DNA of 47,980 nucleotides from Allomuricauda sp. Its GTDB lineage: Bacteria > Bacteroidota > Bacteroidia > Flavobacteriales > Flavobacteriaceae. Position numbers and translations under genes: made by a program. The notes beneath the pieces were generated by a model, which searched no databases, had not been told where the DNA came from, and worked only from the letters and a program-made list of their open reading frames with translations. The stretch is taken from assembly GCA_030148305.1 (NCBI GenBank), contig JASBTS010000049.1, positions 1-47,980 on the forward strand. The letters are read 5' to 3'. The first letter of the stretch is position 1. Each line of letters begins with the position of its first letter. Of the stretch, positions 14,208 through 36,643 are shown piece by piece.

Positions 14208-15407
14208 ATGAAGAAAAATAATGAAGTAAATGAGGGAGCTTTAGAAGGGCTGGTGGTAGCCGATTTTTCCCAATTGGCCCAAGGTCCTTGGGCTACCCAA
14301 ATGCTAGGGGATATGGGGGCGGAAATCATCAAGATTGAGCCCTTAAAAGGAGATTGGATGAGGCATTTCTCATATGGAAACCTATATCCCAAAGGGGAAA
14401 GTATATCCTTTGTAAGTTTCAACAGGAACAAGAAGAGTATCGCCTTGAATCTAAAGGATAGTGCCGACCATGAGATTGCAAGGAATATTATCCGTAAAGC
14501 GGACATCCTTGTGGAGAATTTTAGGCCAGGGGTAATGGAGCGGCTTGGTCTTGGCTATGAGGCGATGAAGGAACTGAACCCTGGGTTGATATATTGTTCC
14601 AGTTCAGGATATGGCTCATCGGGCCCATACACCAAACGCCCCGGACAGGATTTGTTGGCCCAAGCGGTAAGTGGAACAGCTTCCTTGAATGGAAGAAAGT
14701 ATGATATTCCCATGGTTACGGCCGTAGGACAAGCAGATTTGCTCACAAGTCTATTTTTGGTTCAGTCCATCTTGGCCGCTATCTATTCCAGGGAAAAATC
14801 GGGAAAGGGACAGAAGATAGAAACCAATTTGTTGAGCTCCATTATAGGGTTTCATATACAGGAAATTACCGCCTTTCTATACCAAAAAGAAAGGCCGGAG
14901 CGCAGTGAAAGAGGCATACCGAACCCATGGCTCGGGGCACCATACGGATTGTATCCAACCAAAGACGGTTATTTGGCGATAGGCATGAACTCGGTACGAA
15001 AATTAGCAGATTTGGTGGGATTGGATAAATATAGGTCTCAGGAATATGAATCCAATAATATCATGAGGGACAGGGATGAAATTAGAAAGGATTTTGAGAC
15101 TGTTTTTGTGACAAGGACCACCAAGGAATGGCTCGATGACCTATTAAAAGAGGATATTTGGTGCTCACAGGTGAATACCTTGGAAGAGATGGTTTGCGAC
15201 CCCCAGGTGCTTCATAACCACATGATCATGTCCTATGAACACCCTACTATCGGGAATATTGGAACAACTGGGTTTCCTGTGGAGTTCAGTGATACCCCAC
15301 AGTGTATTTATAGACCTGCACCACTACTGAACGAACACCGTGAAGAAATCATCGTGACATTTTGCGGAGAAATCAACCATAACAAAACAAAAATCAACAC
15401 AAAATGA
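14208..15407 (+). CDS. CaiB/BaiF (family III) CoA-transferase
   Basis: LEGLVVADFSQLAQGPWATQMLGDMGAEIIKIEPLKGD, SFNRNKKSIALNLK, ADILVENFRPGVMERLGLGYE, PGQDLLAQAVSG (catalytic Asp region). Confidence 0.95.
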   Translation: MKKNNEVNEGALEGLVVADFSQLAQGPWATQMLGDMGAEIIKIEPLKGDWMRHFSYGNLYPKGESISFVSFNRNKKSIALNLKDSADHEIARNIIRKADILVENFRPGVMERLGLGYEAMKELNPGLIYCSSSGYGSSGPYTKRPGQDLLAQAVSGTASLNGRKYDIPMVTAVGQADLLTSLFLVQSILAAIYSREKSGKGQKIETNLLSSIIGFHIQEITAFLYQKERPERSERGIPNPWLGAPYGLYPTKDGYLAIGMNSVRKLADLVGLDKYRSQEYESNNIMRDRDEIRKDFETVFVTRTTKEWLDDLLKEDIWCSQVNTLEEMVCDPQVLHNHMIMSYEHPTIGNIGTTGFPVEFSDTPQCIYRPAPLLNEHREEIIVTFCGEINHNKTKINTK

Positions 15408-16468
15408 AATTAGGTTTTGGACTGTACCGGCACATGCTCGACCAAGAACATTACAAGTTTGCAAAACAGTGCGGGGCCACCCATTTGGTCATACACATGG
15501 TAGACTATTTTGGGCACAATGACAAAAATGCAGACCAACCCATTGGCGGAAGCAAAGGATGGGGCAAGGCCGGTCGTAAGGATAAAATATGGAGCTATGA
15601 AGAGTTGAGATCCATCAAAGATGAAATCAATGCCAATGGATTGGAATTGGAAGCCATTGAAAACTTTGATCCGGCCCATTGGTATGATGTCCTTTTGGGA
15701 GGTCCCAAGAGGGATGAACAACTTGAAAATTTGAAGCAGCTCATCCGAAATGTCGGCAAAGCGGGAATTCCTGTTTTTGGATATAATTTTTCACTTGCGG
15801 GGGTGTCCTCAAGAACTGTTGGGGCCTACGCCAGGGGAGAAGCAATGTCTGTTGGCATGGAGGGTGAGGTAGATGGTAACCCCATTCCCAATGGCATGGT
15901 CTGGAACATGGTTTATGATGAAAATGCCGTTGAAGGAACCCTCCCCAGGATTTCCCATGACGAGCTATGGAATAGGTTGCACTACTTTTTGGATGCGCTG
16001 GTTCCGGTAGCTGAGGAGGCAGGAGTCAAATTGGCCGCTCATCCCGATGACCCACCTATGCCCTATGTCCGAGACACTCCTCGTTTGGTCTACCAACCCG
16101 ATATGTACCAACGCTTGATAGATCTACGACCAAGCCCCAATAATAATTTGGAGTTCTGCCTGGGTTCCATTGCAGAAATGTCCGAAGGAGATGTCTATGA
16201 AGCAACGGACAGATATACCAAACAGGGTAAGGTTTCCTACATACATTTTCGAAATGTCAAAGGAAAAGTCCCCCATTATAAAGAAGTTTTTGTGGATGAA
16301 GGGGACATAGATATGTTCAGAATACTTGAGATTTTGAAGGAGAATAATTTTGAAGGGGTCCTTATTCCAGATCATACCCCGCAAATGAGCTGTGGTGCAC
16401 CATGGCATGCCGGTATGGCATACGCCATGGGTTATATGAAGGCAGCCATGGAATTGGTAGGGAACTAA
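15404..16468 (+). CDS. Mannonate dehydratase (UxuA-like TIM barrel)
   Basis: AIENFDPAHWYDVLLGGPKRDEQLENLKQLIRNVGKAGIPVFGYNFSLAGVSSRT, KLAAHPDDPP, LEFCLGSIAEM, YIHFRNVKGKVPHYKEVFVDEGDIDM; ATGA overlap with the CoA-transferase gene. Confidence 0.85.
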   Translation: MKLGFGLYRHMLDQEHYKFAKQCGATHLVIHMVDYFGHNDKNADQPIGGSKGWGKAGRKDKIWSYEELRSIKDEINANGLELEAIENFDPAHWYDVLLGGPKRDEQLENLKQLIRNVGKAGIPVFGYNFSLAGVSSRTVGAYARGEAMSVGMEGEVDGNPIPNGMVWNMVYDENAVEGTLPRISHDELWNRLHYFLDALVPVAEEAGVKLAAHPDDPPMPYVRDTPRLVYQPDMYQRLIDLRPSPNNNLEFCLGSIAEMSEGDVYEATDRYTKQGKVSYIHFRNVKGKVPHYKEVFVDEGDIDMFRILEILKENNFEGVLIPDHTPQMSCGAPWHAGMAYAMGYMKAAMELVGN

Positions 16469-16519
16469 TGCCAAAAAATCAAAGAACGCTGCTTATGGCG
16501 GTTGGTTGAATTAGCCTTT

Positions 16520-16563
16520 TTGAATTGTGGAGTGCATCGAACATGAAGGTGCACTCCATTCAA
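16520..16563 (+). terminator. Long imperfect inverted repeat downstream of the uxuA-like gene
   Basis: TTGAAT(TGT)GGAGTGCA ... TGCACTCCATTCAA, one 3-nt bulge. Confidence 0.55.
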
Positions 16564-16617
16564 AGAGATCAGCAAATTATGATGAGGTTAACTAATGTGA
16601 ATATTAACAAACAAACT

Positions 16618-19314
16618 ATGAAAAAAACGATAATTCGGTTAGCTCTACTATGCTGTTTTATAGGAATCAATTCAATAGATGCCCAAGAAACGTTGAAGTG
16701 TGATGAGGAAACCTATGATCTGCTCAAATCTCTGTCGGAATCCAAACTTTCCAAAGGAAATATCCTGTTGTTCGTAACCACACATGAGGACATTGCTTGG
16801 TTGGACGAACCGGAGATATGCAAGATTGACAGGGATGAAAAATGGTTGACACCCTATTTTGAAAAACTGAAATCCACAACCGATTTCAAGATGGATATAG
16901 AGCAATCCTCCATAGTGATGGAATACCTACATCGTCACCCGGAAGAAAAGGAAAATATAGTAAACTTTATTGATCAAGGACGAATAGGTATCGGAGGAGC
17001 CTACGTACAGACTTATGAAGGTATGTATTTTGGGGAATCCCTTTCCAGACAGTTCTACTTCGGGAAAAAATGGATGGAAAACAGCTTGAACGGATATCAA
17101 GCCAAAACCTATTATAATGTTGATGTGCCAGGACGGACCATGCAAATGCCACAACTGGCAAGCAAAGCCGGAATCGATCATTTTGTGTTCAGTCGCCATA
17201 TCAAGGGTCTGTTCAATTGGGAATCTCCAGATGGGACAAAGGTTACATGCTACAGTCCGGGCAACCACTACATGGATTTTTATAATCTTTTGGGAATGGA
17301 GGAACCTGAAGGGATTAAAAAGATGGCCAAAGATGCCGTGGATTGGTATAAGGTCTACAACAATAAATCCCAGGGCCATCCCGTGATGCCGGTCATGCTC
17401 AATTATGAGTTCATCTGGAATCAAAAGCCCGTGGAGAACATGGAACCTTTTATAAATAGGTGGAACGGGATTGGATATATCGAATCTGAGGGCAGAAAGA
17501 AGTTGAAGGTCAAGTTGCCCAAGATTGTTTATTCTACGGCCGACGAGTTTTTTGCAAAAGTTGAAAAAACAACTGTTTTACAAAAGACCATCAAAGGGGA
17601 GCGGCCAAATATGTGGGTATATATCCATGGGGCATCCCATCAAAAGGCATTAAAAGCCAGTAGGGAAGGCGATATATTGATGACCCAGGCAGAGAAGTTT
17701 GCTACGGCAAATGCCATGATCGAGGGATCGTTCAAAAAATACCCTGAGCGAAAGCTACAGAATGCATGGGAATCAAAAATATACCCGGACCACGGATGGG
17801 GAGGTAAAGGGGGAGATGTTACCGATAATGTTTTTTTGCAAAAATTCCTTTTTGCAAAGTCTGAGGCGGAACAAATTGTGCAATCCTCCATTAAGGATAT
17901 AGCCGCTAAAATTGGTTTTGAAACAACCAAGGGAATTCCGATAGTGGTCTTTAATAGCTTGAGTTGGGATCGTACCGACAGGGTGGATTTTTCCATAAAA
18001 TTTGATGAGGGAGAAACCAAAGGAATTGAATTGTTCGATTTAGATAACAATCCAATTCCGGTACAATTGTCCAATTTGGAGCATTATTCCGATGACTCCA
18101 TTAAGGCTGTAATGGTGCATTTTATCGCCAATGATATACCCTCGGTGGGTTATTCCACATATTACTTGAAAAAGACCTCAACCAATCCCCAATTGTCAGG
18201 TAACGGTTTTGATGAAACTTTGGAGAACAAATTTTACAGATTGGAGTTTGGCAATGGAGGGCTTACCCAAATACATGATAAAGAGTTGAACAGGGATTTG
18301 ATTGACTCGGGGAAATTTAAAGCTGGTGAGATTTTTGAATTAAGTTCTGTTGGTAATGGAGCAGGTGAGTTTTCTGAGGTTCAACAGGCAAACACCGATT
18401 ATTTTGATCAATTGGGTACTTCCAAAACTAATTGGAAAATCAAGGAAATAGGATCGGTATATACCAGTGTGGTTATGAGGCAACCTATGAAGGATGCCGT
18501 TGTGGAAATGAGTGTCAAACTTTACCATGACATAAAGAAAATAGACTTTGATGTAGACCTTTTGAATTGGAACGGGACCATGTTCCGGGAATTTCGGATA
18601 GCTTTCCCCCTAAATATGGATACAGGAAAGGTTACCTACGAAGTGCCTTTTGGGGCAGTCACTGTTGGACAGGATGAGCTAAAGGGGACAGGAGGTGAAT
18701 TTTATAAAGGGGAGGTAAGTAAAATTCATCCAAGGGCTATTGGAAATTGGATTTCAGCAAGTAGTTCCGAGTATGGGATCACCCTTACATCAACTGTAGT
18801 TTCAGCAGATTGGAGTGATCCAACGGACTCTTTGAACACCAAGGTTATTTTGCAACCCATTTTATTGGCTTCTAGGAAAAGTTGCCATCATGAAGGGAAT
18901 GATTACCACCAGACAGGGGACCATAATTTTTCATTCAGTCTTACTTCTCATAAACCTGGCTGGCAAGAAGGACGTCAGTTTGGTAACCAGCACAATGAAA
19001 GAATCCTTACCGTGGTAGATCCTTCTTCATTTAAAGATGGCGGATTGCCAGAAAGATTGAGTTTTTTCAGCACAGGAAGTGATAATATCGTCATCAGTAC
19101 CGTGAAGAAAGCCGAAAATGATAATAAGAGTGTCATTAGAATTTTTGAGGCCGATGGTATTGGGACAGAAGCAACGATATCTGTTTTCAAACCAGTTGAA
19201 AAGGCTTGGCAGACTACATTGATTGAGGAACCCAAAAACGAACTAAAGGTTGGTGATGCGATGATGTATTTGAAAATGGGGCACAATACCATTGAGACCA
19301 TAAAATTTGAATAA
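16618..19314 (+). CDS. Second GH38-family alpha-mannosidase-like glycoside hydrolase, secreted
   Basis: ATG 16618 gives MKKTIIRLALLCCFIGINSIDAQ signal peptide; VTTHEDIAWLDEP, NVDVPGRTMQMPQL, KIYPDHGWGGKGGDVTD collinear with the 4395..7292 product. Confidence 0.85.
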   Translation: MKKTIIRLALLCCFIGINSIDAQETLKCDEETYDLLKSLSESKLSKGNILLFVTTHEDIAWLDEPEICKIDRDEKWLTPYFEKLKSTTDFKMDIEQSSIVMEYLHRHPEEKENIVNFIDQGRIGIGGAYVQTYEGMYFGESLSRQFYFGKKWMENSLNGYQAKTYYNVDVPGRTMQMPQLASKAGIDHFVFSRHIKGLFNWESPDGTKVTCYSPGNHYMDFYNLLGMEEPEGIKKMAKDAVDWYKVYNNKSQGHPVMPVMLNYEFIWNQKPVENMEPFINRWNGIGYIESEGRKKLKVKLPKIVYSTADEFFAKVEKTTVLQKTIKGERPNMWVYIHGASHQKALKASREGDILMTQAEKFATANAMIEGSFKKYPERKLQNAWESKIYPDHGWGGKGGDVTDNVFLQKFLFAKSEAEQIVQSSIKDIAAKIGFETTKGIPIVVFNSLSWDRTDRVDFSIKFDEGETKGIELFDLDNNPIPVQLSNLEHYSDDSIKAVMVHFIANDIPSVGYSTYYLKKTSTNPQLSGNGFDETLENKFYRLEFGNGGLTQIHDKELNRDLIDSGKFKAGEIFELSSVGNGAGEFSEVQQANTDYFDQLGTSKTNWKIKEIGSVYTSVVMRQPMKDAVVEMSVKLYHDIKKIDFDVDLLNWNGTMFREFRIAFPLNMDTGKVTYEVPFGAVTVGQDELKGTGGEFYKGEVSKIHPRAIGNWISASSSEYGITLTSTVVSADWSDPTDSLNTKVILQPILLASRKSCHHEGNDYHQTGDHNFSFSLTSHKPGWQEGRQFGNQHNERILTVVDPSSFKDGGLPERLSFFSTGSDNIVISTVKKAENDNKSVIRIFEADGIGTEATISVFKPVEKAWQTTLIEEPKNELKVGDAMMYLKMGHNTIETIKFE

Positions 19315-20796: not shown

Positions 20797-21837
20797 ATGA
20801 GTAAAGTAGTAACCTTCGGAGAGATTATGCTGCGGTTGGCACCTCCCGAGTTTTTAAGGTTTTCGCAAGCGAACCAGTTCGATGTGGTGTACGGCGGAGG
20901 GGAATCCAATGTGGCGGTATCGCTGGCCAACTATGGCGTGCCGATTGACTTTGTCACCCGTCTTCCCAAGAACGACATAGGGGAATGTGCCCTGATGGAG
21001 ATGCGAAAAAGGGGGGTGGGGACCGATAAGATCATATTTGGCGGCAGCCGTCTGGGGATCTATTTCCTAGAGACCGGCGCGGTGAGCAGGGGGAGCAAGG
21101 TGGTCTATGACAGGGCCCGTTCCGCAATGGCCGAGATCGAAAGGGGCATGGTCGATTGGGACCAGGTGTTCCAGGGAGTGGAATGGTTCCATTGGACCGG
21201 CATCACCCCCGCCATCTCGCAGGGTGCCGCGGATGCGTGCATCGAGGCGGTGAAGGCGGCGAAAAGGCATGGCGTAACGGTATCCACGGATTTGAACTAC
21301 AGGGCCAAATTGTGGGATTATGGGGGCGATCGCGAGGCCATCATGACCGAGCTGACCTCCTATTGCGATATTATTCTGGGCAACGAGGAAGATGCCGAGA
21401 AACATTTCGGGATCAAACCGGAAGGATTGGACATAACCACCCAGGGGGAACACGTAAAGGCCGGGGCCTTTTTGTCCGTCTGCCAGCAGATGATGAAAAA
21501 ATTCCCGAACGCCAAAAAGGTGATCACCACCCTGCGAGGTTCTATCAGCGCCTCGCACAACACCTGGGCGGGGGTACTGTATGATGGCAGGACCATGTAC
21601 AGGTCACGGGAATACCAGATCACGCACATCGTGGACCGGGTAGGGGGCGGCGATTCCTTCATGGGAGGGCTGATCTATGGCCTGCTCAAATATCCGGAAG
21701 ACGACCAGAGCGCACTGGACTTCGCAGTGGCGGCCTCTTGCCTGAAACATACGATCAAGGGGGACGCCAATCTGGTAACGGTGGACGAAGTGGAAAAACT
21801 GATGGGGGGCGATGCCTCCGGACGAGTGGCACGATAA
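20797..21837 (+). CDS. kdgK: 2-dehydro-3-deoxygluconokinase (PfkB family)
   Basis: KVVTFGEIMLRLAPPEFLRFSQANQFDVVYGGGESNVAVSLANYG; DRVGGGDSFMGGLIYGLL PfkB signature; immediately followed by eda. Confidence 0.93.
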   Translation: MSKVVTFGEIMLRLAPPEFLRFSQANQFDVVYGGGESNVAVSLANYGVPIDFVTRLPKNDIGECALMEMRKRGVGTDKIIFGGSRLGIYFLETGAVSRGSKVVYDRARSAMAEIERGMVDWDQVFQGVEWFHWTGITPAISQGAADACIEAVKAAKRHGVTVSTDLNYRAKLWDYGGDREAIMTELTSYCDIILGNEEDAEKHFGIKPEGLDITTQGEHVKAGAFLSVCQQMMKKFPNAKKVITTLRGSISASHNTWAGVLYDGRTMYRSREYQITHIVDRVGGGDSFMGGLIYGLLKYPEDDQSALDFAVAASCLKHTIKGDANLVTVDEVEKLMGGDASGRVAR

Positions 21838-21846
21838 GCAAATAGT

Positions 21847-22512
21847 ATGGCAAAGTATTCAAGGATAGAGGTGGCGATGGCCATGGAGGGAACGGGAATG
21901 GTACCCTTGTTCTATCACCCGGATGTGGAATTGGGCAAGAAAGTATTGAGGGCGTGCTATGATGGTGGAGCCCGCTTGATGGAGTTCACGGCACGTGGCG
22001 ATTTTGCCTTCGAGGTCTTTTCGGAGCTCAACAAGTTCGCCATAAAGGAACTCCCCGGGATGATGATGGGTGTAGGCTCCATAACCGATGTGGCCGCTGC
22101 TTCGCTCTTTATGCAGATGGGCGCCAATTTTGTAGTGACCCCATCCCTGCGTGAGGATATCGCCATAGCGTGTAACCGTAGAAAAGTACTTTGGTCACCT
22201 GGTTGTGGTTCCCTGACAGAGATCAACAGGGCGGAGGAACTGGGTTGCGAGATCATAAAGCTTTTTCCGGGATTCGTCTACGGCCCCGAATTCGTGAAGG
22301 CCATTAAAGGGCCACAACCCTGGACCAAGGTGATGCCCACCGGGGGGGTGACCACAGGGGAATCCAATCTGAAAGCATGGTTCGACGCAGGGGTCACCTG
22401 TGTGGGCATGGGATCACAATTGATAAGCAAGGAAGTATTGGAAAAGCAGGATTTTGCCAAGTTGGAAAACGAGGTGAGAAGAGTTTTGGAAACCATTAGG
22501 ATTATTAAATAA
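21847..22512 (+). CDS. eda: Bifunctional KDPG/KHG aldolase
   Basis: MEFTARGDFAFEVFSEL, GVGSITDVAAASLFMQMGANFVVTPSLREDIA, SPGCGSLTEI, IIKLFPGFVYGPEFVKAIKGPQPWTKVMPTGGVTTGESNLKAWFDAGVTCVGMGSQL. Confidence 0.95.
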   Translation: MAKYSRIEVAMAMEGTGMVPLFYHPDVELGKKVLRACYDGGARLMEFTARGDFAFEVFSELNKFAIKELPGMMMGVGSITDVAAASLFMQMGANFVVTPSLREDIAIACNRRKVLWSPGCGSLTEINRAEELGCEIIKLFPGFVYGPEFVKAIKGPQPWTKVMPTGGVTTGESNLKAWFDAGVTCVGMGSQLISKEVLEKQDFAKLENEVRRVLETIRIIK

Positions 22513-22564
22513 ATTTTTTTAAATGAAATAGTAGTATAGGTTAGTTTAGTTAATTATTGAGATG

Positions 22565-22589
22565 CGGCCCTTAGGGGCCGTGTTTCTTT
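22565..22589 (+). terminator. Rho-independent terminator after kdgK-eda
   Basis: CGGCCC-TTAG-GGGCCG stem followed by TGTTTCTTT. Confidence 0.75.
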
Positions 22590-22963
22590 GAAAAAAGTAA
22601 ATTTTTGCCTTGAATAAATGGGTTGTTTTCTGGTGTAGATACCCCGATCTTTAGGACAGATTTTCTACAAAACTAATATAATTATCAAGCCGCTCTCTTA
22701 AATAGATCAATAGGTCTTTCATAGTTGATGGACTTGGTGTCTTCTTTCATGGTTGTATTAATCAAAGTACTGCGCTAATAACAGATGGAGTTCCATACCG
22801 TCCCTTAGAGGGTTCAGATAGATATTCACATATCTAATGTGACAGAACCTTTAGTTTCCCTTGAAAGCTTTAATTTTAGACAACAGAATTAAATTTGCTA
22901 TGTTTAGACAATGATTTTCGAAATAATGAATGTATTTGATCGGTGATGATCGGAGGGAGGAAG

Positions 22964-23911
22964 TTATAAACCAAGTTTGTCCATTTTTTCCTTTTCATAG
23001 GAGCCATCTTCGGCCGGATACCTTAAAATGGAATCATATTTCCCGGATTGTTTGGCCAAGGACCAAATAAGGCTTTCTCCTGCAAATGCTGCAAAAGGGA
23101 TGTTTTTGAAAACACTATCGTTATAAGCTTTGTCAGAATCTACCACTTCCCAGCCCTCATCCTTGAACTTTTGTACAAGGTCACCGAGAAACAAGGCAGA
23201 AGTTAAATTATGATGCAGCAAAAGGGTATGGTTGATATGCCTGCCATGCAGTTCAAGAGAAAGCTTTTCATAATATTCAGCTCTTGCCATAATGTGGTCC
23301 AAATAGAAATTTTTATATCCTTCCAAATCGGTTTTTTCCATGCCTTTTTTCTTGAGCATGGCTATCAACCTTTGGTTTACGTACCAATCGGAAGCATCTA
23401 TGGTTACATAGCCATTGGTGTAATGATGGGAGGTAAGAATGTTTCTAAGGCTATCGGTTTTTGATATTGAGCCACCTTCCTTCAAATAGGGAAATCGGAA
23501 CAGTTTAATGTTATTGTTGAATTTAGAAATTATGCTGTCCGTCTTGAGCAACTCCTGCTCGAAAAATAGGGTGTTGTTTTTTTGGGAATTGAAATTAGGG
23601 TGGGAAAAGGTATGGTTTGCCAAGTGATGGCCGGCATCGTTCCATGATTTCAAAAGATAGTTTCCCCTTTCATCCAATTTATTGTTTCCGGTTACAAAGA
23701 AGATCGTCTTAATGTTCTCTTTTTCCAAATGGTTCAGAATCATTCTATTCCATTCTTCAAACTTGAAGTTTTGAATATCAGTGGTAAGGCCATCATCAAA
23801 AGTGAAGCTCACCTTTGGCGTTTCCACATTGATGTTTATTGTGTCGGGAGTAGAACTTTTACATCCGAATAGAAACAAGAACAATAAACCTAAAAATGGA
23901 TTAGGGGTCAT
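22964..23911 (-). CDS. Polysaccharide deacetylase (NodB/CE4-like) lipoprotein
   Basis: MTPNPFLGLLFLFLFGCKSS lipobox start; VSFTFDDGLTTD, HHLANHTFSHPN NodB motifs. Confidence 0.88.
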   Translation of the reverse strand: MTPNPFLGLLFLFLFGCKSSTPDTININVETPKVSFTFDDGLTTDIQNFKFEEWNRMILNHLEKENIKTIFFVTGNNKLDERGNYLLKSWNDAGHHLANHTFSHPNFNSQKNNTLFFEQELLKTDSIISKFNNNIKLFRFPYLKEGGSISKTDSLRNILTSHHYTNGYVTIDASDWYVNQRLIAMLKKKGMEKTDLEGYKNFYLDHIMARAEYYEKLSLELHGRHINHTLLLHHNLTSALFLGDLVQKFKDEGWEVVDSDKAYNDSVFKNIPFAAFAGESLIWSLAKQSGKYDSILRYPAEDGSYEKEKMDKLGL

Positions 23912-25314: not shown

Positions 25315-26160
25315 TTACTCGGTAAAAATGTATCGTTCCTTTACCATTTCGGAAAGTCTGAAATAGCCATATGGAAAGTTCTCTGGATTGGTCCTGTTGA
25401 TACAATTGCCCTTAACTGCAGCGGGTACCGGGGTAAAGGGACCTGAATTTCCCATTTGACTGATCATGACTTTGATATAATCATAATACGGTCTTGATAT
25501 CCCATACATATTGATATCTAAAATGTCGCCTGGTTCAAACGGGACAACATTTTGATCCTCGTCTTCCATAATTTCATACCACCAATCAATTTGGTTTCCA
25601 TTGATGAATTTGTCGTCCCCGGCCTCCAAAACAGGTAAAAGGTCCCCGGCACGTTTAAATTTGAACAGATAGTTGTTGCTTTCCTCGTCTGGGTCGTTAA
25701 AGAGAATATGGGCTTCCAAGGCTTCATCGTCAAAACCGTCCTCCCTACTTTGATAAATGTCGATAATATTTGTCACTGGGGTCATGGTTTCAAAGGCATT
25801 GTAGATTTCTCCATCATACTGAATGGTCAGGGAATAGGATTGACCCATAACAGGTTCAAAACTGGAGGTGCGGTATTCCCCATCTCCTTGATCTGTGAAA
25901 ATATAGGTTACGGAACTGCTCAAGTTGGTAACGCTTACCTGGGCACCTTCCGCGGGAACAAATGCATTGGAATCAAAATAGGGGGTAGACTTACTCAATC
26001 GAATGGTCTGCTCGTTTCCGGCTGTGCCTTTTTCCCAATCCAAGGAAGCTTCAATCACCAAGCGAGTTGGACCTTGTGGTACTTCAACATCAATGACATC
26101 GGTACAGGAAAGAATAGGGATTATACTTAAAATCAAGAGGGAATTTATGAACTGTTTCAT
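25315..26160 (-). CDS. DUF4249 family lipoprotein
   Basis: MKQFINSLLILSIIPILSCTDVIDVEVPQGPTRLVIEASL; partner of the adjacent TonB receptor. Confidence 0.85.
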   Translation of the reverse strand: MKQFINSLLILSIIPILSCTDVIDVEVPQGPTRLVIEASLDWEKGTAGNEQTIRLSKSTPYFDSNAFVPAEGAQVSVTNLSSSVTYIFTDQGDGEYRTSSFEPVMGQSYSLTIQYDGEIYNAFETMTPVTNIIDIYQSREDGFDDEALEAHILFNDPDEESNNYLFKFKRAGDLLPVLEAGDDKFINGNQIDWWYEIMEDEDQNVVPFEPGDILDINMYGISRPYYDYIKVMISQMGNSGPFTPVPAAVKGNCINRTNPENFPYGYFRLSEMVKERYIFTE

Positions 26161-26164
26161 GATG

Positions 26165-28564
26165 TTAAAATTTAAAGTTGTAGGTAATGGAGGGTACAAT
26201 TCCGAAAATGGCTGTTCGGGTAGCTTCATTGGCTCCGGTTTCCAAGTTTTGGCCAAAGGATATGGAGGCAGCATTTTTTCTGTTATAGAGATTGTAAATA
26301 CTCAATATCCATTCCCCTTTTAGCCTTTTGTTTTCCGATCTATTGGGTTTGTAGTTCACGGAAAAATCTATTCTGTGATAAGCGGGTAAACGGTCCGAAT
26401 TACGGTCTGAGTAACTGGTAAAAGATCTGCCCTCATAGGTATATTGACCAATAGGGTAGGTTACGGGCCTTCCTGTTTGAAATACCAGGCTGGATCCAAA
26501 ACTCCATCGATCGTTCAATCGATACGATCCCGATACGGAAATATCATGTGTGCGATCAAAAAAGGCATTATACCATTCTCCACCGTTGATTCCAGGTCCA
26601 CCGGCGTTTCCTCCCGGAGTTCGCTGCTCCGATTTCGATAGGGTATAGGCTACCCAACCAGTGAGGTCCCCTTCGTTTTTCCGAAGTAACAGTTCAAGAC
26701 CATAGGCCCTCATTTCGCCGTTCAGAATTTCTGTTTCAATGGTATTTTGACCAATGAGCTCAGAACCGTCTATATAGTCGATGCGATTATCCACCGTTTT
26801 GAAGTAACCTTCAACCTCCAAAGAATAAGCCTCGTCATTAAAGTCATGAAAATATCCAAGAGAATATTGATCGGACAATTGGGGTTTGATGAAAGGGCCA
26901 CTGGGGGTCCATACATCCAATGGGGTAACAGAGGAGGTATTGGAAAGGAGATGGATGTATTGGGCCATTCTTGAAAAGCTGGCCTTAACTGAGGATTGCC
27001 TGCTAGCTAGAAAAGCAAGAGACACCCTTGGTTCCAAATTGCCATAGGTTTCTATAGTCTCACTTTTGGAAAAATAGGTTTCACCTGTAGGCTTTCCACG
27101 CTCATAAATATCCAAGGTGGGGTTGTAAACTACAGGTTGGTCATTTTCATATGTTGTGATGGCCTGACCTCCGAACCGTATAAAATAGCTATATCGTAGA
27201 CCATATTGCAGCGAAAGTTTTGAGGTGATCTTTTGTTCCGCACTCACATATAGGCCACTTTCTAGGGCACGTTTTCTATCTAATTGAAGTTCGTTGATGA
27301 TGGAATCGTCCGAGGTCGGGGCAATTTGCCCTGGATCAAAATTGTAAGCGATGCCGTTTGCCCCAAAATCAATTTTGAAGGCGTCACTTACATAATATTT
27401 AAAATCATATTTAAGGTTTAAATTGGTGATGGATGAAAGCCATTCAAAATCTTCCTGTTGAAAGTTCAGGTCATAATCATAACGACTTAGAATAAGTGAT
27501 AGGTTGGAGAATAACCTATCGCTGAAGATATGGTTCCACCTTAAGTTACCGGTGGCATTGCCGTAACTGCTTTCAAAAATACTCCCTAGTTGAAAAGCAT
27601 CCCTGCCAAAATATCCGCTAAGGAACAATTTGTTGTTAGGGTTGATACTGTAATTCGTTTTTAAGTTGAGGTCATAAAAGCTGACACTGTTCTTTTCTCC
27701 TGCAGCTTTCAGGAAGAGATCAATATAGGACCGTCGGCCCGCAATCAAAAATGATCCTTTGTCCCTGAACATGGGTCCCTCCGCAGCCAATCGGCTTGAG
27801 ATAACACCAATACCCCCCGTAAGGGCAAAGGATTTACTATTGCCATCTTTTTGACGGACATCTAAAACTGAAGATACCCTCCCTCCAAATTGAGCAGGAA
27901 TTCCCCCTTTATAAAGTTTCAGGTCCTTAATGGCATCTGCATTGAACACGGAAAAGAAACCGAACATATGTGAAGTATTATAGATGATGGCCTCATCGAG
28001 CAATACCAGATTCTGGTCCTGGGCACCGCCCCTTACATGGAAGCCTCCGGTGCCCTCGCCATTGTTGGTAACCCCCGGCAACATCTGTAACGATTTTAAA
28101 ATGTCCATTTCTCCCAACACCACGGGCATTTGTCTTACAGTTCCCATATTCATTTTGGCAACACTCATTTCGGGTTTTCGTAAAATGGCCTTTTCCGGCT
28201 CATCACCAGTGACCACCACCTCTTCCAGCAGGGTTGAGGCTTCTGATATTTCCACATCTTGTTTAATATCACTTGTAAGACTGATGGTGATGTTTTCATC
28301 ATGATATCCCAAATAGGAAATGTGCAGTACATAATTTCCCTCCGGAGCGGTTATGGAGTAAAAACCATATTCATTTGTGGTCCCACCAATGGTGGTGCCC
28401 GACAAATAGACCGATGCACCAAAAAGGGTTTCACCATTGCTTTTATCGGTTATGGTACCGCTTACGGTACGGGATTGTTGGCTACTTACAACAAAGCAGC
28501 CTAAAAAATAAAACCACAGGAACCCTAATTTATAAGCAGGTGTTGGTTTCAATCGTGTTTTCAT
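26165..28564 (-). CDS. TonB-dependent receptor with carboxypeptidase-regulatory-like N-terminal domain
   Basis: SGTITDKSNGETLFGASVYLSGTTIGGTTNEYGFYSIT; LPGVTNNGEGTGGFHVRGGAQDQNLVLLDEAIIYN plug. Confidence 0.93.
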   Translation of the reverse strand: MKTRLKPTPAYKLGFLWFYFLGCFVVSSQQSRTVSGTITDKSNGETLFGASVYLSGTTIGGTTNEYGFYSITAPEGNYVLHISYLGYHDENITISLTSDIKQDVEISEASTLLEEVVVTGDEPEKAILRKPEMSVAKMNMGTVRQMPVVLGEMDILKSLQMLPGVTNNGEGTGGFHVRGGAQDQNLVLLDEAIIYNTSHMFGFFSVFNADAIKDLKLYKGGIPAQFGGRVSSVLDVRQKDGNSKSFALTGGIGVISSRLAAEGPMFRDKGSFLIAGRRSYIDLFLKAAGEKNSVSFYDLNLKTNYSINPNNKLFLSGYFGRDAFQLGSIFESSYGNATGNLRWNHIFSDRLFSNLSLILSRYDYDLNFQQEDFEWLSSITNLNLKYDFKYYVSDAFKIDFGANGIAYNFDPGQIAPTSDDSIINELQLDRKRALESGLYVSAEQKITSKLSLQYGLRYSYFIRFGGQAITTYENDQPVVYNPTLDIYERGKPTGETYFSKSETIETYGNLEPRVSLAFLASRQSSVKASFSRMAQYIHLLSNTSSVTPLDVWTPSGPFIKPQLSDQYSLGYFHDFNDEAYSLEVEGYFKTVDNRIDYIDGSELIGQNTIETEILNGEMRAYGLELLLRKNEGDLTGWVAYTLSKSEQRTPGGNAGGPGINGGEWYNAFFDRTHDISVSGSYRLNDRWSFGSSLVFQTGRPVTYPIGQYTYEGRSFTSYSDRNSDRLPAYHRIDFSVNYKPNRSENKRLKGEWILSIYNLYNRKNAASISFGQNLETGANEATRTAIFGIVPSITYNFKF

Positions 28565-28616
28565 GTTTTTAATTGATTTAGTGAATGTCATTATTGGAAT
28601 TGGGTTGTGGTCGGTG

Positions 28617-29654: not shown

Positions 29655-30269
29655 TTAGAACAAACTATCGGTATCCCTTACTTTTGCCTTGACCACATCG
29701 CCATTGGTTTTGATTTCCACCTTTTTTATGGCAAAGGCCATGTCATTCACATTGTAATGGTATATTCTTTCAATTGGGGCGGATCCAATGTACATTCCCC
29801 CTAAATAGGTATGTGTATATCCTTCCACCCTTGTTGTACTTTTGGTTCGTATAAAATTGAATTCCGATATCAGAAAATATTCCCCTGCAGGTAAACCTGT
29901 AAATTCAAATTCTCCTTTTTGACCTTTAACCGCAGTTTTTAAGAGGCATTCGGCGGCCCCTTCGGGTAAGGGGAGTGGGTCCTCGTTCCTCTTTGCCGCT
30001 TTTTTGTTATAGTCCAACCAATATTGGAAATAGGCGGTATAGGGAATGAGAACTACCTCGGTACCTTGCGGAGCGAATTGTTTTTTATTGATGTTGATAA
30101 TAGCGATACCTTTTATAGGTGCTGTGTTGTCTTTGGCAAACACTACCCCTTCGATGGTAGATTTGCCGTTGGACATTAATTTTAAGGTTTCTTCCTTGTT
30201 GAAGGCGACCTCTTGGGAAATTCCTGAAAAGTAAAATCCGAACAGGACGAGGATTGCAATTTTTTTCAT
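29655..30269 (-). CDS. Secreted protein of unknown function
   Basis: MKKIAILVLFGFYFSGISQEVAF signal peptide; 204 aa; GEFEFTGLPAGEYFLIS CNA-B-like stretch. Confidence 0.75.
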   Translation of the reverse strand: MKKIAILVLFGFYFSGISQEVAFNKEETLKLMSNGKSTIEGVVFAKDNTAPIKGIAIININKKQFAPQGTEVVLIPYTAYFQYWLDYNKKAAKRNEDPLPLPEGAAECLLKTAVKGQKGEFEFTGLPAGEYFLISEFNFIRTKSTTRVEGYTHTYLGGMYIGSAPIERIYHYNVNDMAFAIKKVEIKTNGDVVKAKVRDTDSLF

Positions 30270-30321: not shown

Positions 30322-31383
30322 TTAGTTTATTTTATCCACATCGATGATGCCTCCTTGGCTACAATTGGTAGACGTCCAAGGGCCAAGAAGATTATCCCCG
30401 TTTTCCGTGAGTACTGCTTGGGCATTTTCACAGGGAACAATATTGGAAGGCAATTCAAATGCATAAGGATAGGAGATGTCGATGGAAATGGTACCATTGG
30501 AATTGACCAGTCCGTTAAAACGTCGAGTGAGAAAGTCATTGTTATAGGTAATGGTATATTCCCCTCTTATGATGTTGCTGTCCTGATGGAGATAGAGGTT
30601 ACATACCCATGTGCGGCCAATATCGGGATTGGTTAAGGTCCCCTTATAGGCTGCATCATACTTTTGCCTGCCTATATTGAACACAATGGCGTCTCCGATA
30701 TCCGAAGGAATTTGTCCATCAATGAATTGATACCTTCGCTCCAAAAGAAGGTCCAGCAATTGTATTGGAGTTGCTGTTGGAAAATCTGTAATGAGATCGA
30801 TACCTACAGCAAGGTTATGTCTAGAAATTGTGATACTACCTGGGTCACAGGTTTGATGGGCCTCGGCCATCTCCTTGGCAAAGTTGGTGTCCGTGGCATC
30901 GATCATCAATAACACCCAATAAGCGCGCCTGAATCCATCTGCTTTGGAATTGGCCTTTCCTGCATCTTGAGGGAATTTTTCCATGGCAGCGGTCAAGGAT
31001 TGTTGAATTGATGCCTTCATGGCCGTATAGGATTTTATGGGCTTGGTCAAAACAAGTTTCCATTCCTCTTCACACATCCGGTTATCCAAAGAGAACATCG
31101 GATTCGTTGAAATATTTGGAGCGGACTGCGCTTTGATGTCGTTGAAAATTTGCAAGGCCAACCCATCCTCATCGTCCAATAGATCTGGCTCTGCTGTGAT
31201 GGCCGCTTCGTAACTGTTAAGAAATTGTTTGTAGGTCGGAATTGCTTGCTTTTGGAATTCCTCACAAGAGATCGGACCGACATTAGCTGTACAGTCCTCC
31301 GTATCGTTGGAACAATTGGAGAGAAGTCCGCTCATGAAGATAATTAAAACAAAGAACCCCTTGTTAATCATTTTTTTTGTCAT
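30322..31383 (-). CDS. Lipoprotein of unknown function
   Basis: Likely start MTKKMINKGFFVLIIFMSGLLSNCSND with lipobox; no family recognised. Confidence 0.75.
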   Translation of the reverse strand: MTKKMINKGFFVLIIFMSGLLSNCSNDTEDCTANVGPISCEEFQKQAIPTYKQFLNSYEAAITAEPDLLDDEDGLALQIFNDIKAQSAPNISTNPMFSLDNRMCEEEWKLVLTKPIKSYTAMKASIQQSLTAAMEKFPQDAGKANSKADGFRRAYWVLLMIDATDTNFAKEMAEAHQTCDPGSITISRHNLAVGIDLITDFPTATPIQLLDLLLERRYQFIDGQIPSDIGDAIVFNIGRQKYDAAYKGTLTNPDIGRTWVCNLYLHQDSNIIRGEYTITYNNDFLTRRFNGLVNSNGTISIDISYPYAFELPSNIVPCENAQAVLTENGDNLLGPWTSTNCSQGGIIDVDKIN

Positions 31384-31715
31384 GATATGTTGTTTTTTAG
31401 ATTGTTGTATTATCATAAGTGTCATTTAGGTAAGTTGGGCTGCCATTGTGAACTATTCCTATAACCAATCCGCACCCGAAGACCCAAAGCCCTTGGGTGG
31501 AATGGTTGGTAGAGGCATTTCGAAATTTTGATGCCAATATGACAATGGGTTTCGCCAAGATTTCCTTTCGTAAAAAGCCCAAAACACAATATGCTGGGCC
31601 ATTTTGGAAATCCAATCGGCTAAAGAATAGGACATGTTCTTTTTTAAGCACTTTTTGGTACGAAATTATAGGGAATACCAACGGTTGTCAATCGATGGAA
31701 CTGACTATATATTTC

Positions 31716-31731
31716 TACTGGATTACCAGTA
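31716..31731. promoter_or_regulatory. Dyad site 3, TACTGG-ATTA-CCAGTA (putative response-regulator operator)
   Basis: Perfect inverted repeat in the 31.4-31.9 kb intergenic region; half-site shared with two sites flanking rpfF. Confidence 0.5.
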
Positions 31732-31904: not shown

Positions 31905-32543
31905 TCAAATAAGTTTACTTTTTGATGCTTCCATGATCAATTCCGCGGCATTCCGTACTTTAAACTTGGACATGAGGTTCCTTCTATGCGTTTCTATAGT
32001 AAGGGGGCTTACAAAGAGTTTATCCGCAATTTCTTGGGTGGTGAGCCCCTTGCTTATCAGTTCAAGAATCTCTTTTTCCCGCTTTGTTAACCTAGGAAGT
32101 TCCTTTAACTCCTCCATATTGGGGTTGGCCATAATGGAAGATACCTCCCTTGAAAAAACGATTTCTCCGTTCATGGCGGCATGAATACAATCTTTAAGTT
32201 CCATGGATCCAATGTTTTTAAGAAGATATCCATTGGCACCATTTTGGATCATTTGTAGGATGATGCTTCTTTCAGTATGGTTGCTAAGAGCCAGTACCTT
32301 TGTTTTGGGCGACATCAATTTGACTTTTTTACAAAGGTCGATTCCGCTGATATCAGGAAGGGATATGTCCAAAAGAATGATATCCGTGTTGGTCCTGTTC
32401 AGAAAATTCATCAAGGACGATCCAAGGGAAAATGTTTCCAAAATGTTGATTTCAAGATCCCCATGTAACATGGTCTTGATTCCTTCAACAACAATGGAAT
32501 GATCATCTACAATGATCAGGGAGATTGGTTTATTTGTACACAT
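31905..32543 (-). CDS. NarL/FixJ-family response regulator
   Basis: SLIIVDDHSIVVEGIKTML receiver, DIILLDISLPDISGI, C-terminal LTKREKEILELISKGLTTQEIADKLFVSPLTIETHRRNLMSKF HTH. Confidence 0.95.
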   Translation of the reverse strand: MCTNKPISLIIVDDHSIVVEGIKTMLHGDLEINILETFSLGSSLMNFLNRTNTDIILLDISLPDISGIDLCKKVKLMSPKTKVLALSNHTERSIILQMIQNGANGYLLKNIGSMELKDCIHAAMNGEIVFSREVSSIMANPNMEELKELPRLTKREKEILELISKGLTTQEIADKLFVSPLTIETHRRNLMSKFKVRNAAELIMEASKSKLI

Positions 32544-34530
32544 CCAATTCTATATTTATTATGGTACCTTCATTTGGAACACTTTTGATCTCTAGCTGGC
32601 CATCCAAATAGGAGACTCGGTTTCTGATGTTATCCAGCCCCATACCGGAGTGAAAGCTATTGGTTTCTAAATTAAAACCTTTCCCATTGTCTTCGACCGT
32701 GATGAACAGTCTATTTTGATTTTGGCTGCATTGGACCAAAATCATGGATGCTTGTGAGTGTTTTATGGCATTGGACAGCAGTTCTTGGACAATTCTGTAG
32801 ATGGTCAATTGGTTCTGTTGCGGTATATCCTCCTCAATTTGAAAGGATTCGTATTCAATTTGTGTCCCCGGGGTTCTGTAAAGCTCACATAGGTCCCTTA
32901 ATCCTGTGTTGATGCCAAATTTCAATAGACTTTCTGGCATCATATTCCTGGCAATCCTTCGTAGTTCAACTAAGGAGTAGTCTATTTTGTTTTGTACTTG
33001 CTCCAAGGCAATATTCGTAGTATCTCCCTTATCCTCTATCTTGGAAAGATTCATTTTAATTCCCGCCAATATACCTCCCAATCCATCATGGAGGTCTTGG
33101 GCAACCCTTTTTCTTTCGTTTTCTTCACCGACCAGAATGGCCTTTGCGGAATTCAATTGCTGCTGTTGGTTCATTTCTTTCAATTCCTGCTTGTAATTGA
33201 TTTCTCGTTGAAGGGAAAGTTTCTTATGCTTTTGGTAATAGGACCAAAGAATTATGGCAAAAAGTAAGGAAAAGAAAAGGGATAATTCCAAAAGCAAATA
33301 GTATAATTTATTGTTGTTTGTGGTCAATTCAGTCAATTCTTTTTCCGCTTCCAAGGAGGCAATTTTTTTCTCATTTTCCACGGTCCTGAACTGGATTTCC
33401 AACGCATTCAATTTTTCCTTGAACTGACTCTGGTTAAGACTATCGTTGATGCTGTTATACTTCAGCAACCAGTCGTAGGCTTCTTCCTTTTGTCCCATTA
33501 GCGCCGTTACCTGTGACAATTGCTGAAATAAGGTGCGCCGATTGTTGGTGTCGGAAAAGAAAGGTTTTCTGTCCATGAGACTCAATAAGGACTGCTTGGC
33601 CATTCTATAATCCTTAAGTTCCAAATAGGCATTGTATTTCCGGAAGACCAACATTTGTTCCAACATTTGTTGATGGTATTTTTGGGCAATGGCAATGCCT
33701 TGATCTGCACTTTGTATTGCGGCCAGAAACTTTTCGGTCACTGTGAAGTACAAGGATTCAATGAAATAATACACACCAAGGTTTATGGATTCGGGATAGG
33801 GATCAAGCATGGCCTTAGCTTGGTTCAAATGTGCCTTTCCCATAATGCTCTCGCTCATATACAAGTAACTGCTCGCGGTAAACAAGTGCACAAACAACAA
33901 TACACTGGAATTTTTAAATCGATCTTGGTTTAAAAGGGACAATGCCTTCTCTTGGTATTCCAAACTCTTTTTAAACTGGGAATTGTATAAGAAGGTAACG
34001 CCGATCTGCGAATAGAAATGGGCTTTTTTTTCTATCTCGCCCACCTCGTCCAACAAGGGAATGGCCTTTTCCAGGGCATTTTCCACAAAAAACTCATATC
34101 CTTTTTCATTTTTCATCATCATGCCATAGTCAAACCAGGCCGTGGCCCGTAAAAGTTTTGCTTCCTTCGTGTCAAATTGGGATAGTTTTTCTACTGAGGT
34201 TTTAAAACAATCGGCTGCTTTGGTGACATCATGGTTGAAATAGAATTGTCCTTCGTAAAAGGGATACATGGCCTCCATAAAGTCATCCCCTTGGCCCCAA
34301 TCCTTGGCCAGGTTCAAGTACCTTCTGGCCTCAATGGTATCCCGGCCACGCCAATAATCCGATAACCAGAAAGCGGCCTTGGTCCTGTCAGATGTTCCGA
34401 TCTTGGAACGGATCACGTTTTCAAGACTATCTACATATTTGGTTTCATCAAGTGGTAGGACTTGTTGGGCAAAGGCATAAAACATGGACAAAAGACAAAA
34501 AGTTGGTATTAACCAATTCCGCTTGGTCAT
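32530..34530 (-). CDS. Sensor histidine kinase with periplasmic TPR-like sensor (HisKA_3/HATPase)
   Basis: Signal peptide, TPR-like region, TM helix LYYLLLELSLFFSLLFAIILWSYY, NERKRVAQDLHDGLGGILAGIKMNL, VEDNGKGFN; overlaps the regulator gene. Confidence 0.93.
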   Translation of the reverse strand: MTKRNWLIPTFCLLSMFYAFAQQVLPLDETKYVDSLENVIRSKIGTSDRTKAAFWLSDYWRGRDTIEARRYLNLAKDWGQGDDFMEAMYPFYEGQFYFNHDVTKAADCFKTSVEKLSQFDTKEAKLLRATAWFDYGMMMKNEKGYEFFVENALEKAIPLLDEVGEIEKKAHFYSQIGVTFLYNSQFKKSLEYQEKALSLLNQDRFKNSSVLLFVHLFTASSYLYMSESIMGKAHLNQAKAMLDPYPESINLGVYYFIESLYFTVTEKFLAAIQSADQGIAIAQKYHQQMLEQMLVFRKYNAYLELKDYRMAKQSLLSLMDRKPFFSDTNNRRTLFQQLSQVTALMGQKEEAYDWLLKYNSINDSLNQSQFKEKLNALEIQFRTVENEKKIASLEAEKELTELTTNNNKLYYLLLELSLFFSLLFAIILWSYYQKHKKLSLQREINYKQELKEMNQQQQLNSAKAILVGEENERKRVAQDLHDGLGGILAGIKMNLSKIEDKGDTTNIALEQVQNKIDYSLVELRRIARNMMPESLLKFGINTGLRDLCELYRTPGTQIEYESFQIEEDIPQQNQLTIYRIVQELLSNAIKHSQASMILVQCSQNQNRLFITVEDNGKGFNLETNSFHSGMGLDNIRNRVSYLDGQLEIKSVPNEGTIINIELDVYK

Positions 34531-34599
34531 ATGGGAGATGTTTTAAAGGAGCCAAATGTAAATATTATCCTTTTGGGAGCAAGTTTTTTGTCTTGTATA

Positions 34600-34615
34600 T
34601 ACCTGAAAACCAGTA
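34600..34615. promoter_or_regulatory. Dyad site 1, TACCTG-AAAA-CCAGTA in the divergent HK/rpfF promoter region
   Basis: Lies 84 nt upstream of the rpfF ATG and 70 nt upstream of the HK start; shares 16 exact bp (CCTGAAAACCAGTAGA) with site 2. Confidence 0.55.
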
Positions 34616-34698
34616 GAAAAAAATGGTGTTTTCAATCCATTGATGATTATCTGAATAAATAGGATAATTGGGGTGTTCAAAAAAGTAAAATCCCAATT

Positions 34699-35523
34699 AT
34701 GGCAAATATTCGAAGGGAAAAAATCAGTGTATCCGTTGAAATGGAAATCTTTTATGATAGACCAAGAATGCTGATTCTTTATTTGGGGTCTCGAGAGGAA
34801 ATGTATTATTCCTATGATACGATCTCTGGATTTTGCGAAGCAGTTCCTGTGGTAAAAAAAATGGTTGAGGATTACCATATCACGTTCATTGTAATCCGAT
34901 CTATCAATGCCACTGTCTGGAACATGGGAGGAGATTTGGAGTTGTTCGTAGAATGCCAACGAACCCATAACATAGCCCTTTTAAGGGACTATGCATATAA
35001 ATGTGTGGAATTTGTGAGCCAATTGAACAAAGGATTCGGTACGGATGTCCAAGTAATCAGTCTTGTGGAGGGCAATGCCTACGGAGGCGGATTTGAATGT
35101 GCATTGGCCACAGAGTTCATCATTTCAGAGAACCAAGCATTGTTTAGCTTTCCAGAGGTACTTTTCTCCACATTCCCGGGTATGGGTGCATATAGTTTCT
35201 TGACCAGGAGAATTGGTCATTCCAATGCCCAAGATATCATTAACAGTGGTAAACGTTGGAGTGCAACCGAAATGAAGAACTATGGCATTGTGGATGGTAT
35301 CTGTGAAAAAGGAAAGGGGCTGGAATACATTGAAAATTTGATAGAGCGCAATGCTTTTTTGAGCCCTGAGTTCTCTAGGATATGCAGAAAAGTAAATATT
35401 GGGGAATTAAAGGAAATAGTGGACATCTGGATGCGGAAGGTTATGGAAATCAAGGAGGAAGATATAAAATTAATGGAGCGAATTGTTGCTGCGCAGAAAC
35501 AGAAAATGGGCAACCGGGTATAG
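34699..35523 (+). CDS. rpfF: RpfF-family DSF (diffusible signal factor) synthase homolog, crotonase fold
   Basis: NMGGDLELF, LVEGNAYGGGFECALATEFIISE, FSFPEVLFSTFPGMGAYSFLTRRI, and C-terminal IVDIWMRKVMEIKEEDIKLMERIVAAQ match the Xanthomonas RpfF pattern over most of the length as recalled; both catalytic-position Glu present. Confidence 0.85.
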   Translation: MANIRREKISVSVEMEIFYDRPRMLILYLGSREEMYYSYDTISGFCEAVPVVKKMVEDYHITFIVIRSINATVWNMGGDLELFVECQRTHNIALLRDYAYKCVEFVSQLNKGFGTDVQVISLVEGNAYGGGFECALATEFIISENQALFSFPEVLFSTFPGMGAYSFLTRRIGHSNAQDIINSGKRWSATEMKNYGIVDGICEKGKGLEYIENLIERNAFLSPEFSRICRKVNIGELKEIVDIWMRKVMEIKEEDIKLMERIVAAQKQKMGNRV

Positions 35524-35526
35524 ATA

Positions 35527-35542
35527 TCCCTGAAAACCAGTA
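35527..35542. promoter_or_regulatory. Dyad site 2, TCCCTG-AAAA-CCAGTA between rpfF and the DoxX gene
   Basis: Direct repeat of site 1 (CCTGAAAACCAGTAGA at 35529..35544 and 34602..34617). Confidence 0.5.
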
Positions 35543-35676
35543 GATAAAAGTACTGTTTTCCACTTATTGTCGTGGTACCTGTGGGGCGGTACCTTTACTT
35601 CAGGTATTTCTAAGATTTGATCCTAGTGTGATGAGATTGACCCATCAAGAATTTTAAACCAAAACATTAGTAATGT

Positions 35677-36090
35677 ATGAATGTCACCAACCGATTTAAC
35701 TTAGTTTTTTGTATGTATCGGGCCTTAGTGTCCATTCTTATGATCATCCACGGAATCACTAGATTGTACTTGGGCACAATACCTGATTTTGGAGTCTTTT
35801 TGGACGGGCAGGGGATTCCTTTTGGTGTGGTTGTGGCATACGGTATTACCGCTTTTGAAATACTTGGTGGATTGCTGCTCATATTCGGTAAGTTCCCAAA
35901 ATGGATTGCTTCACTTTTTGCATTGGAACTTTTGTTCGGCATTATTATGGTTCATTCCAATTTTGGATGGTTTGTCGTAGGGCACAGCTCAAACGGTATG
36001 GAGTATAATATTTCATTGATTTTAGCTTTTCTGTTGATTGCGGCAGAAGATTTTCTTAAACCAAAATCCACCATTTTCAATAATGAATAG
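35677..36090 (+). CDS. DoxX-family membrane protein
   Basis: RALVSILMIIHGITRLYLGTIPDFGVFLDGQGIPFGVVVAYGITAFEILGGLLLIFGKFPKWIASLFALELLFGIIMVH. Confidence 0.8.
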   Translation: MNVTNRFNLVFCMYRALVSILMIIHGITRLYLGTIPDFGVFLDGQGIPFGVVVAYGITAFEILGGLLLIFGKFPKWIASLFALELLFGIIMVHSNFGWFVVGHSSNGMEYNISLILAFLLIAAEDFLKPKSTIFNNE

Positions 36091-36643
36091 ATCACAAGTA
36101 TTGTTCCTGTTATTTTTTTTCCTGCATTTTTCACATTCATTTTCCCAAAAGGTTCCAAGTGTGGAGTTTACAGGGAGACCCTATTTTTTGGTTGAGGATG
36201 GCAAACTGGCGGACATGGAGCGAGTCGATGCCCAAATGGATTATAAAGTAAAGGCCTTGGGATATGGAGGTACTGATATCTATTTTACGGTATTCTCACC
36301 GTCATCACCGATCACATTTGAAATAGGTACTTTGCCCAAGATCATAATCCGAGTGGAAGAAAACGTGGATCCCAGTGAAATTGTCACACTTTCCAAAGCC
36401 GTTCTTAAAAAGGATAGGAGACGTTTTTTACAAGGCAGTATGGCATTTGGAGGCAAAGCGAGGGATGTCAGTGATTCCTTTGTACAAATAGAATTTGAGA
36501 TGATCGATAAGGGACTGTATCAAATTGTGCTCCCGGGCGAACTTGAACCTGGCGAGTATGGATTTGTTCCTATCGTGAACAATGCCAACCCCTTGACCGG
36601 CATGAAAACTACTGTGAAGGTCAGCTGTTTTTCCATTCAATAA
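36083..36643 (+). CDS. Secreted protein of unknown function
   Basis: ATG 36083 gives MNRSQVLFLLFFFLHFSHSFSQ signal peptide; overlaps the end of the DoxX gene. Confidence 0.75.
   Translation: MNRSQVLFLLFFFLHFSHSFSQKVPSVEFTGRPYFLVEDGKLADMERVDAQMDYKVKALGYGGTDIYFTVFSPSSPITFEIGTLPKIIIRVEENVDPSEIVTLSKAVLKKDRRRFLQGSMAFGGKARDVSDSFVQIEFEMIDKGLYQIVLPGELEPGEYGFVPIVNNANPLTGMKTTVKVSCFSIQ

Follow-up and report, generated by a model that had tools for sequence, protein, structure and literature searches.

Does a flavobacterium possess an RpfF-type enzyme of its own, and if so, what would it do there? RpfF-family enzymes produce fatty-acid signals in pathogens of plants and of humans, and DSF signalling is, to our knowledge, known almost only from Proteobacteria. 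We examined a stretch of 47,980 nucleotides from Allomuricauda sp. (assembly GCA_030148305.1, contig JASBTS010000049.1), hereafter the window, on which an earlier note had read one gene as an RpfF-type DSF synthase homolog and as a sign of an undescribed fatty-acid signalling system in this lineage. The gene, here called rpfF, lies on the forward strand and runs from an ATG at 34699 to a stop codon ending at 35523, in an intact frame of 274 aa.

We compared the protein with RpfF-type and ordinary crotonases. It scores 228 bits against NF006452/PRK08788, the NCBIfam model of RpfF-type crotonases, above the cut-off of 177. Its 171 bits against the narrow equivalog NF053515 ("DSF synthase RpfF") fall under a cut-off of 550, a failure that is uninformative because the RpfF of B. 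cenocepacia (RpfFBc/DfsA), from a species in which a BDSF synthase is proven, fails as well with 188 bits. Searching the PDB by sequence returned the RpfF-type chains 7zq7, 3m6m, 5fus and 6dgn at 9e-43 to 4e-31, whereas the best ordinary hydratase came at 4e-14. An AlphaFold model built from a four-sequence alignment (pLDDT 79, pTM 0.80; a model from only two sequences, with pLDDT 59, was set aside) gave the same picture. Foldseek placed RpfF crystal chains at all ranks from 1 to 12 (TM 0.81-0.85, E ~1e-19, 25-31% identity across the whole model), and the first non-RpfF crotonase, at 6e-13, followed some five to six orders of magnitude behind. Likewise, in the phylogeny the RpfF-family rows, the window protein among them, split from ordinary crotonases with support of 100/100. 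Together these results show that, by HMM, sequence, tree and predicted fold, the gene is an RpfF-family enzyme, as the earlier note had proposed; the peptides it quoted are all present in the protein.

An ordinary enoyl-CoA hydratase, acting in the breakdown of fatty acids or phenylacetate, would share the ECH_1 Pfam domain, which the window protein carries, and the two catalytic Glu. This reading is nevertheless scarcely credible, with the tree and the fold ranking against it and with separate ordinary hydratases encoded in the same genome, one of them at window 12350-13126. As nearest kin, ordinary hydratases are ruled out by the PDB search together with that split and ranking.

The active site points in the same direction. 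Both catalytic glutamates that had been claimed to be kept are indeed in place, E133 corresponding to E141 and E153 to E161 of Xanthomonas campestris (Xcc) RpfF. Of the ten published active-site and pocket residues of Xcc RpfF (PMC9864630), eight are identical in the window protein, namely (Xcc numbering) Gly85, Gly137, Gly138, Glu141, Glu161, Gly169, Met170, equivalent to window M162, and Trp258, equivalent to window W244. Xcc RpfF (3m6m/3m6n) and RpfFBc (5fus) have in common with the window protein the fold, both catalytic Glu, Met170 and Trp258, the FPGMG and GGDL motifs and the C-terminal helical region. The two changes in the pocket are Leu136 to Tyr128 and Leu276 to Ile262, and the Tyr sets the window protein apart from both characterized enzymes. 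In the alignment, the window's clade and a group of siderophore-cluster genes described below both have Tyr or Phe where Xcc RpfF has Leu136, which might change chain-length preference.

We next consider how widely the gene occurs. The RpfFs of the window, of F. sedimenticola and of a further genome, G752, form one clade (support 99-100/98-100), whose other members are 41-45% identical to the window protein, that of F. sedimenticola ~45%. The nearest plasmid-borne proteobacterial relatives found by protein search reach 35-39%, and the tree leaves the branching order among the flavobacterial groups and the proteobacterial RpfFs unsettled. Searches with query P0001 found rpfF in one of the 73 genomes from the genus, in 3 of 201 from the family and in 1 of 250 from the genus of genome G129; NF006452 matched in 1 of 398 genomes of the phylum and a three-sequence profile in 5 of 400 of the family, in samples that overlap and most of which count the window's own genome. 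From this rarity at all three ranks it follows that rpfF is an accessory gene of sporadic occurrence. The claim of an undescribed system in the lineage thus holds for membership of the RpfF family and fails as a lineage-wide statement (1/73 genomes of the genus, 1/398 of the phylum).

The absence of the gene from 72 of the 73 genomes of the genus, in a draft assembly of 239 contigs and ~80% completeness, would also fit a contaminant foreign to this genome or decayed, non-functional cargo. We regard this as very unlikely. GC and GC3 of rpfF match those of the neighbouring genes, giving no compositional sign of recent transfer relative to them; the adjoining kinase and DoxX genes have paralogues elsewhere in the same genome; and the frame is intact, with the pocket residues kept. 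Elsewhere in the window, at 20797-22512, lie sugar kinase and aldolase-like genes, the first of which was probably acquired, because its GC content is 56% (GC3 71%) in a window of 42% GC.

The genes around rpfF offer a different kind of partner from those of the known systems. RpfC, RpfG and RpfR are not found among the ORFs neighbouring rpfF, as the earlier note had said, but that note overlooked an adjacent histidine kinase and response regulator. Divergent to rpfF, at 32530-34530 on the reverse strand, lies a gene for a sensor histidine kinase (HisKA_3 and HATPase_c) with a signal peptide, TPRs and, by eye, one TM segment; its homologues are 29-41% identical. Overlapping it at 31905-32543, on the same strand and in one operon with it, is a gene for a NarL/LuxR-type response regulator with REC and GerE Pfam domains. 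Downstream of rpfF, on its strand, are a DoxX-family membrane protein gene (35677-36090; with one homologue, 49%, in the F. sedimenticola island and another, 35%, next to a paralogous kinase of the same genome) and a gene for a secreted protein w​ithout Pfam match (36083-36643), which has a homologue beside the same paralogous kinase/DoxX module (232 bits). On the reverse strand beyond the regulator lie genes for a putative lipoprotein with DUF6973 (30322-31425) and for a 204-aa secreted protein (29655-30269), to which weakly similar proteins are encoded in the F. sedimenticola island and close to three further TPR kinases of the genus. Thus, unlike the genes for Xcc RpfF and RpfFBc, the window gene lacks RpfC, RpfG and RpfR nearby and adjoins a TPR kinase and a NarL-type regulator.

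As far as GGDEF proteins go, a canonical c-di-GMP output for this RpfF seems unlikely, because they had no match in any of the four genomes searched: the window's own (~80% complete), G752, G073 and F. sedimenticola. RpfF-like genes of the same PRK08788 family on alphaproteobacterial plasmids (Bosea, Sphingomonas and Methylobacterium; 35-39%) differ in adjoining a gene for an EAL protein, a pairing that resembles known RpfF/RpfR pairs (PMC6361424).

We then looked at the DNA between these genes. Two imperfect 46-nt direct repeats, 80% identical and on the forward strand, bracket rpfF exactly (34597-34642 and 35524-35569), and the 14-mer core of the first copy has no other exact occurrence in the 3.1-Mb assembly. 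RNA structure in the repeats was no better than in shuffles, and the repeat was not found around rpfF in F. sedimenticola or G752. At its heart is the 16-mer TACCTGA-AA-ACCAGTA (34600-34615, in the divergent intergenic region of kinase and rpfF), which reads as the 7-2-7 inverted repeat typical of NarL sites (PMC7419079). A second putative operator, TCCCTGA-AA-ACCAGTA (35527-35542), directly follows the rpfF stop codon upstream of doxX, and a third, the near-perfect TACTGGA-TT-ACCAGTA (31716-31731), lies between the regulator gene and the lipoprotein gene downstream of it.

A matrix trained without the window's site ranked 34600, 31716 and 35527 as the three best matches in the 48 kb. No site in 3 Mb of simulated DNA scored as high as either of the two best, the score at 34600 being partly circular because training sites were partly picked for likeness to it; this circularity does not touch 31716 or the F. 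sedimenticola sites. The 16-mer recurs 60-86 nt upstream of the start codons of homologous kinases elsewhere in the genus, with 5 of 8 matching at 13-16 of 16 positions and only 0.04% of shuffles reaching 13. Two pairs among the five look like orthologues, leaving about three independent cases. Exact copies in the genus-wide search occur only in the window's genome and in one other (G262), both upstream of a TPR kinase, and one-mismatch matches elsewhere in the genus look like chance. When dyad symmetry was the sole criterion, the regions upstream of the kinases could not be told from shuffles (4/10 against a mean of 2.4), and defining the operator of the kinase promoters strictly as a palindrome was dropped. 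Since that test failed, the operator claim rests on the 16-mer at its fixed distance and on the palindromes of F. sedimenticola.

These palindromes surround a second rpfF island. Within 19 kb of the F. sedimenticola contig (C24:8732-27507) are found genes for a DoxX protein (8732-9139), two TPR kinases (11981-13972 and 14084-16081), a response regulator (16086-16718), a member of the 204-aa family (22351-22968) and RpfF (26692-27507), whereas none of these families occurs at 50-130 kb of the same contig. The perfect palindrome TACCTG-N4-CAGGTA is present seven times in the genome, and six of the seven copies fall in the 31 kb around rpfF (C24:14004-44959), a clustering with a chance scan bound of ~4e-9. 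Sites on the contig scoring at least 14 are all intergenic except one (51115). In F. sedimenticola, rpfF comes fourth in a closely packed series of genes, an apparent operon, that starts at 33124 and is headed by a perfect palindrome at 33270, 146 nt upstream. Upstream of rpfF, in one run with it and under the palindromic operators, sortilin/BNR-repeat proteins that bear type IX secretion tails are encoded in arrays (locus L008:28-7907). Together the data from the two genera are consistent with predicted 7-2-7 operators at kinase and target promoters, as would suit a NarL-type two-component regulon. The likeness to E. coli NarX/NarL consists in the NarL-family regulator and the 7-2-7 inverted-repeat sites (PMC7419079); it differs in that the window's sensor is a TPR protein and the putative sites are local to an accessory island.

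Other loci weaken the link between kinase and rpfF. In G752, whose RpfF belongs to the same clade, neither the kinase nor operator palindromes were found in the stretches read near rpfF (7-86 kb of its contig C21). A TonB receptor and partner lipoprotein at window 25315-28591 are closely similar to a pair at the G752 rpfF locus (L024:1594-4790; 955 and 143 bits); each pair lies ~4-6 kb from rpfF, which may be a coincidence of a common gene pair. The window's kinase is 40% identical to rpfF-less paralogues and only 29-30% to the F. sedimenticola kinases. Because it is nearer to the former, kinase and rpfF did not simply co-evolve, and the kinase is ruled out as an rpfF-specific partner by orthology. 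A paralogous module in the same genome (L022) contains the kinase, the regulator, DoxX and the family of 36083-36643, and there a small gene, glyoxalase-like by eye, occupies the place of rpfF. No recognisable intergenic DNA is common to this module and the window, hence it offers no clean empty site. Given rpfF without the kinase in G752 and the module without rpfF in L022, the kinase/regulator/DoxX module does not seem to depend on rpfF, and rpfF looks like interchangeable cargo in the first divergent slot of the module. From gene order and motifs, rpfF thus appears to be carried as accessory cargo of a recurring TPR kinase/NarL-type regulator/DoxX module and to be flanked by NarL-like operators.

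We consider it fairly probable that rpfF encodes an inducible RpfF-type enzyme, carried as cargo of a two-component regulon, that releases free 2-enoic fatty acids. The TPR region of the kinase would sense an envelope or extracellular cue, and the kinase would phosphorylate the regulator. The regulator would bind the 7-2-7 sites and switch on rpfF, doxX, its own operon and the neighbouring secreted proteins. RpfF would then dehydrate 3-hydroxyacyl-ACP to 2-enoyl-ACP and hydrolyse the thioester to yield a free 2-enoic fatty acid, both reactions being established for RpfFBc (PMC12838280). The acid could act as a signal on that very kinase, as a message to other bacteria, or as a metabolite linked to the membrane or to stress, and any signalling role would be an inference. 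It is probably cis-2 and, as Flavobacteriaceae are rich in iso-3-hydroxy acids, probably iso-branched.

If the first of these roles applied, the locus would be a true DSF quorum-sensing system, in which the RpfF product leaves the cell by export or diffusion, the TPR kinase is its receptor and rpfF, driven by the regulator, closes a positive loop. The divergent arrangement of synthase and kinase around a common operator region, the joining of synthase and kinases in one operator-rich island of F. sedimenticola, and the unlikelihood of an RpfR route in a genome with no GGDEF proteins found would suit such a loop. We nevertheless think it unlikely: close homologues of the kinase occur without rpfF and thus do not in general serve to sense fatty acids, a TPR region stands where RpfC has its sensor and RpfR its PAS domain, and G752 has rpfF with no kinase nearby.

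A better candidate, possible though we incline against it, is a metabolic acyl-ACP thioesterase/dehydratase that serves no signalling and supplies 2-enoic acids with which the membrane or envelope is remodelled or a secreted product acylated. RpfF-like genes do occur in flavobacterial IucA/IucC siderophore clusters of three genera (genomes G073, G975 and G1057; L021:9585-10417, L085:9962-10870 and L086:9469-10293), accompanied by an acyltransferase-like membrane protein and an MFS exporter; the enzymes there perhaps make the 2-enoyl chain of an acylated siderophore, and a frameshift splits the copy in G073 (L021). Likewise, genome G052 has two tandem RpfF-like genes (L020:1343-3060), the second with GLGFE for GGGFE, in a cluster with a PUFA-synthase-like megasynthase, a P450 and a phosphopantetheinyl transferase, and secreted sortilin/BNR proteins bearing type IX secretion tails abound in the F. 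sedimenticola operon. Because relatives sit in siderophore and PUFA-synthase-like clusters, membership of the RpfF family alone does not mean signalling. Against a metabolic role, these genes form clades of their own, the three siderophore-cluster genes a second and the G052 pair a third, apart from that of the window, and no biosynthetic genes adjoin the window's rpfF.

Two more distant relatives, both 28% identical to the window protein, lie on mobile DNA. A full-length RpfF-like protein with both Glu motifs kept is encoded on the IMG/VR viral contig IMGVR_UViG_3300001270_000004 (L052:1009-1815), close to an ORF resembling a phage primase, and is possibly a phage-borne DSF-synthase homologue; searching the viral contigs with an ordinary hydratase returned nothing. 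On the IncK2/Z E. coli plasmid NZ_CP060058.1 an RpfF-like gene (L028:5944-6777) lies among a run of ABC-transporter and lipoprotein-sorting genes.

Full-text searching of open-licence papers turned up a single study touching on RpfF in Flavobacteriaceae (PMC6801697). There, rpf-like genes were claimed in Flavobacterium from a BLASTP match to RpfF in Flavobacterium akiainvivens, and a FaRpfC-FaYpdB pair was proposed, the genes being scattered. The window's locus resembles that proposal in this claim of rpf-like genes; in the section examined, the crotonase match is not separated from ordinary hydratases and the regulator is of LytTR type.

The locus thus provides an RpfF in Flavobacteriaceae with its active-site residues intact, linked in each of two genera with a kinase/regulator pair and putative operators. 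Within this single family, RpfF-type enzymes are found in no fewer than three settings, namely a two-component regulon, siderophore clusters and a PUFA-synthase-like cluster. It is conceivable, if rather doubtful, that the sporadic island is a flavobacterial DSF-type circuit in which a TPR kinase and a NarL-type regulator would replace RpfC/RpfG and RpfR, with direct transcriptional output and not c-di-GMP. The finding offers a specific candidate, open to testing, for the way in which Bacteroidota could produce and regulate DSF-type molecules.
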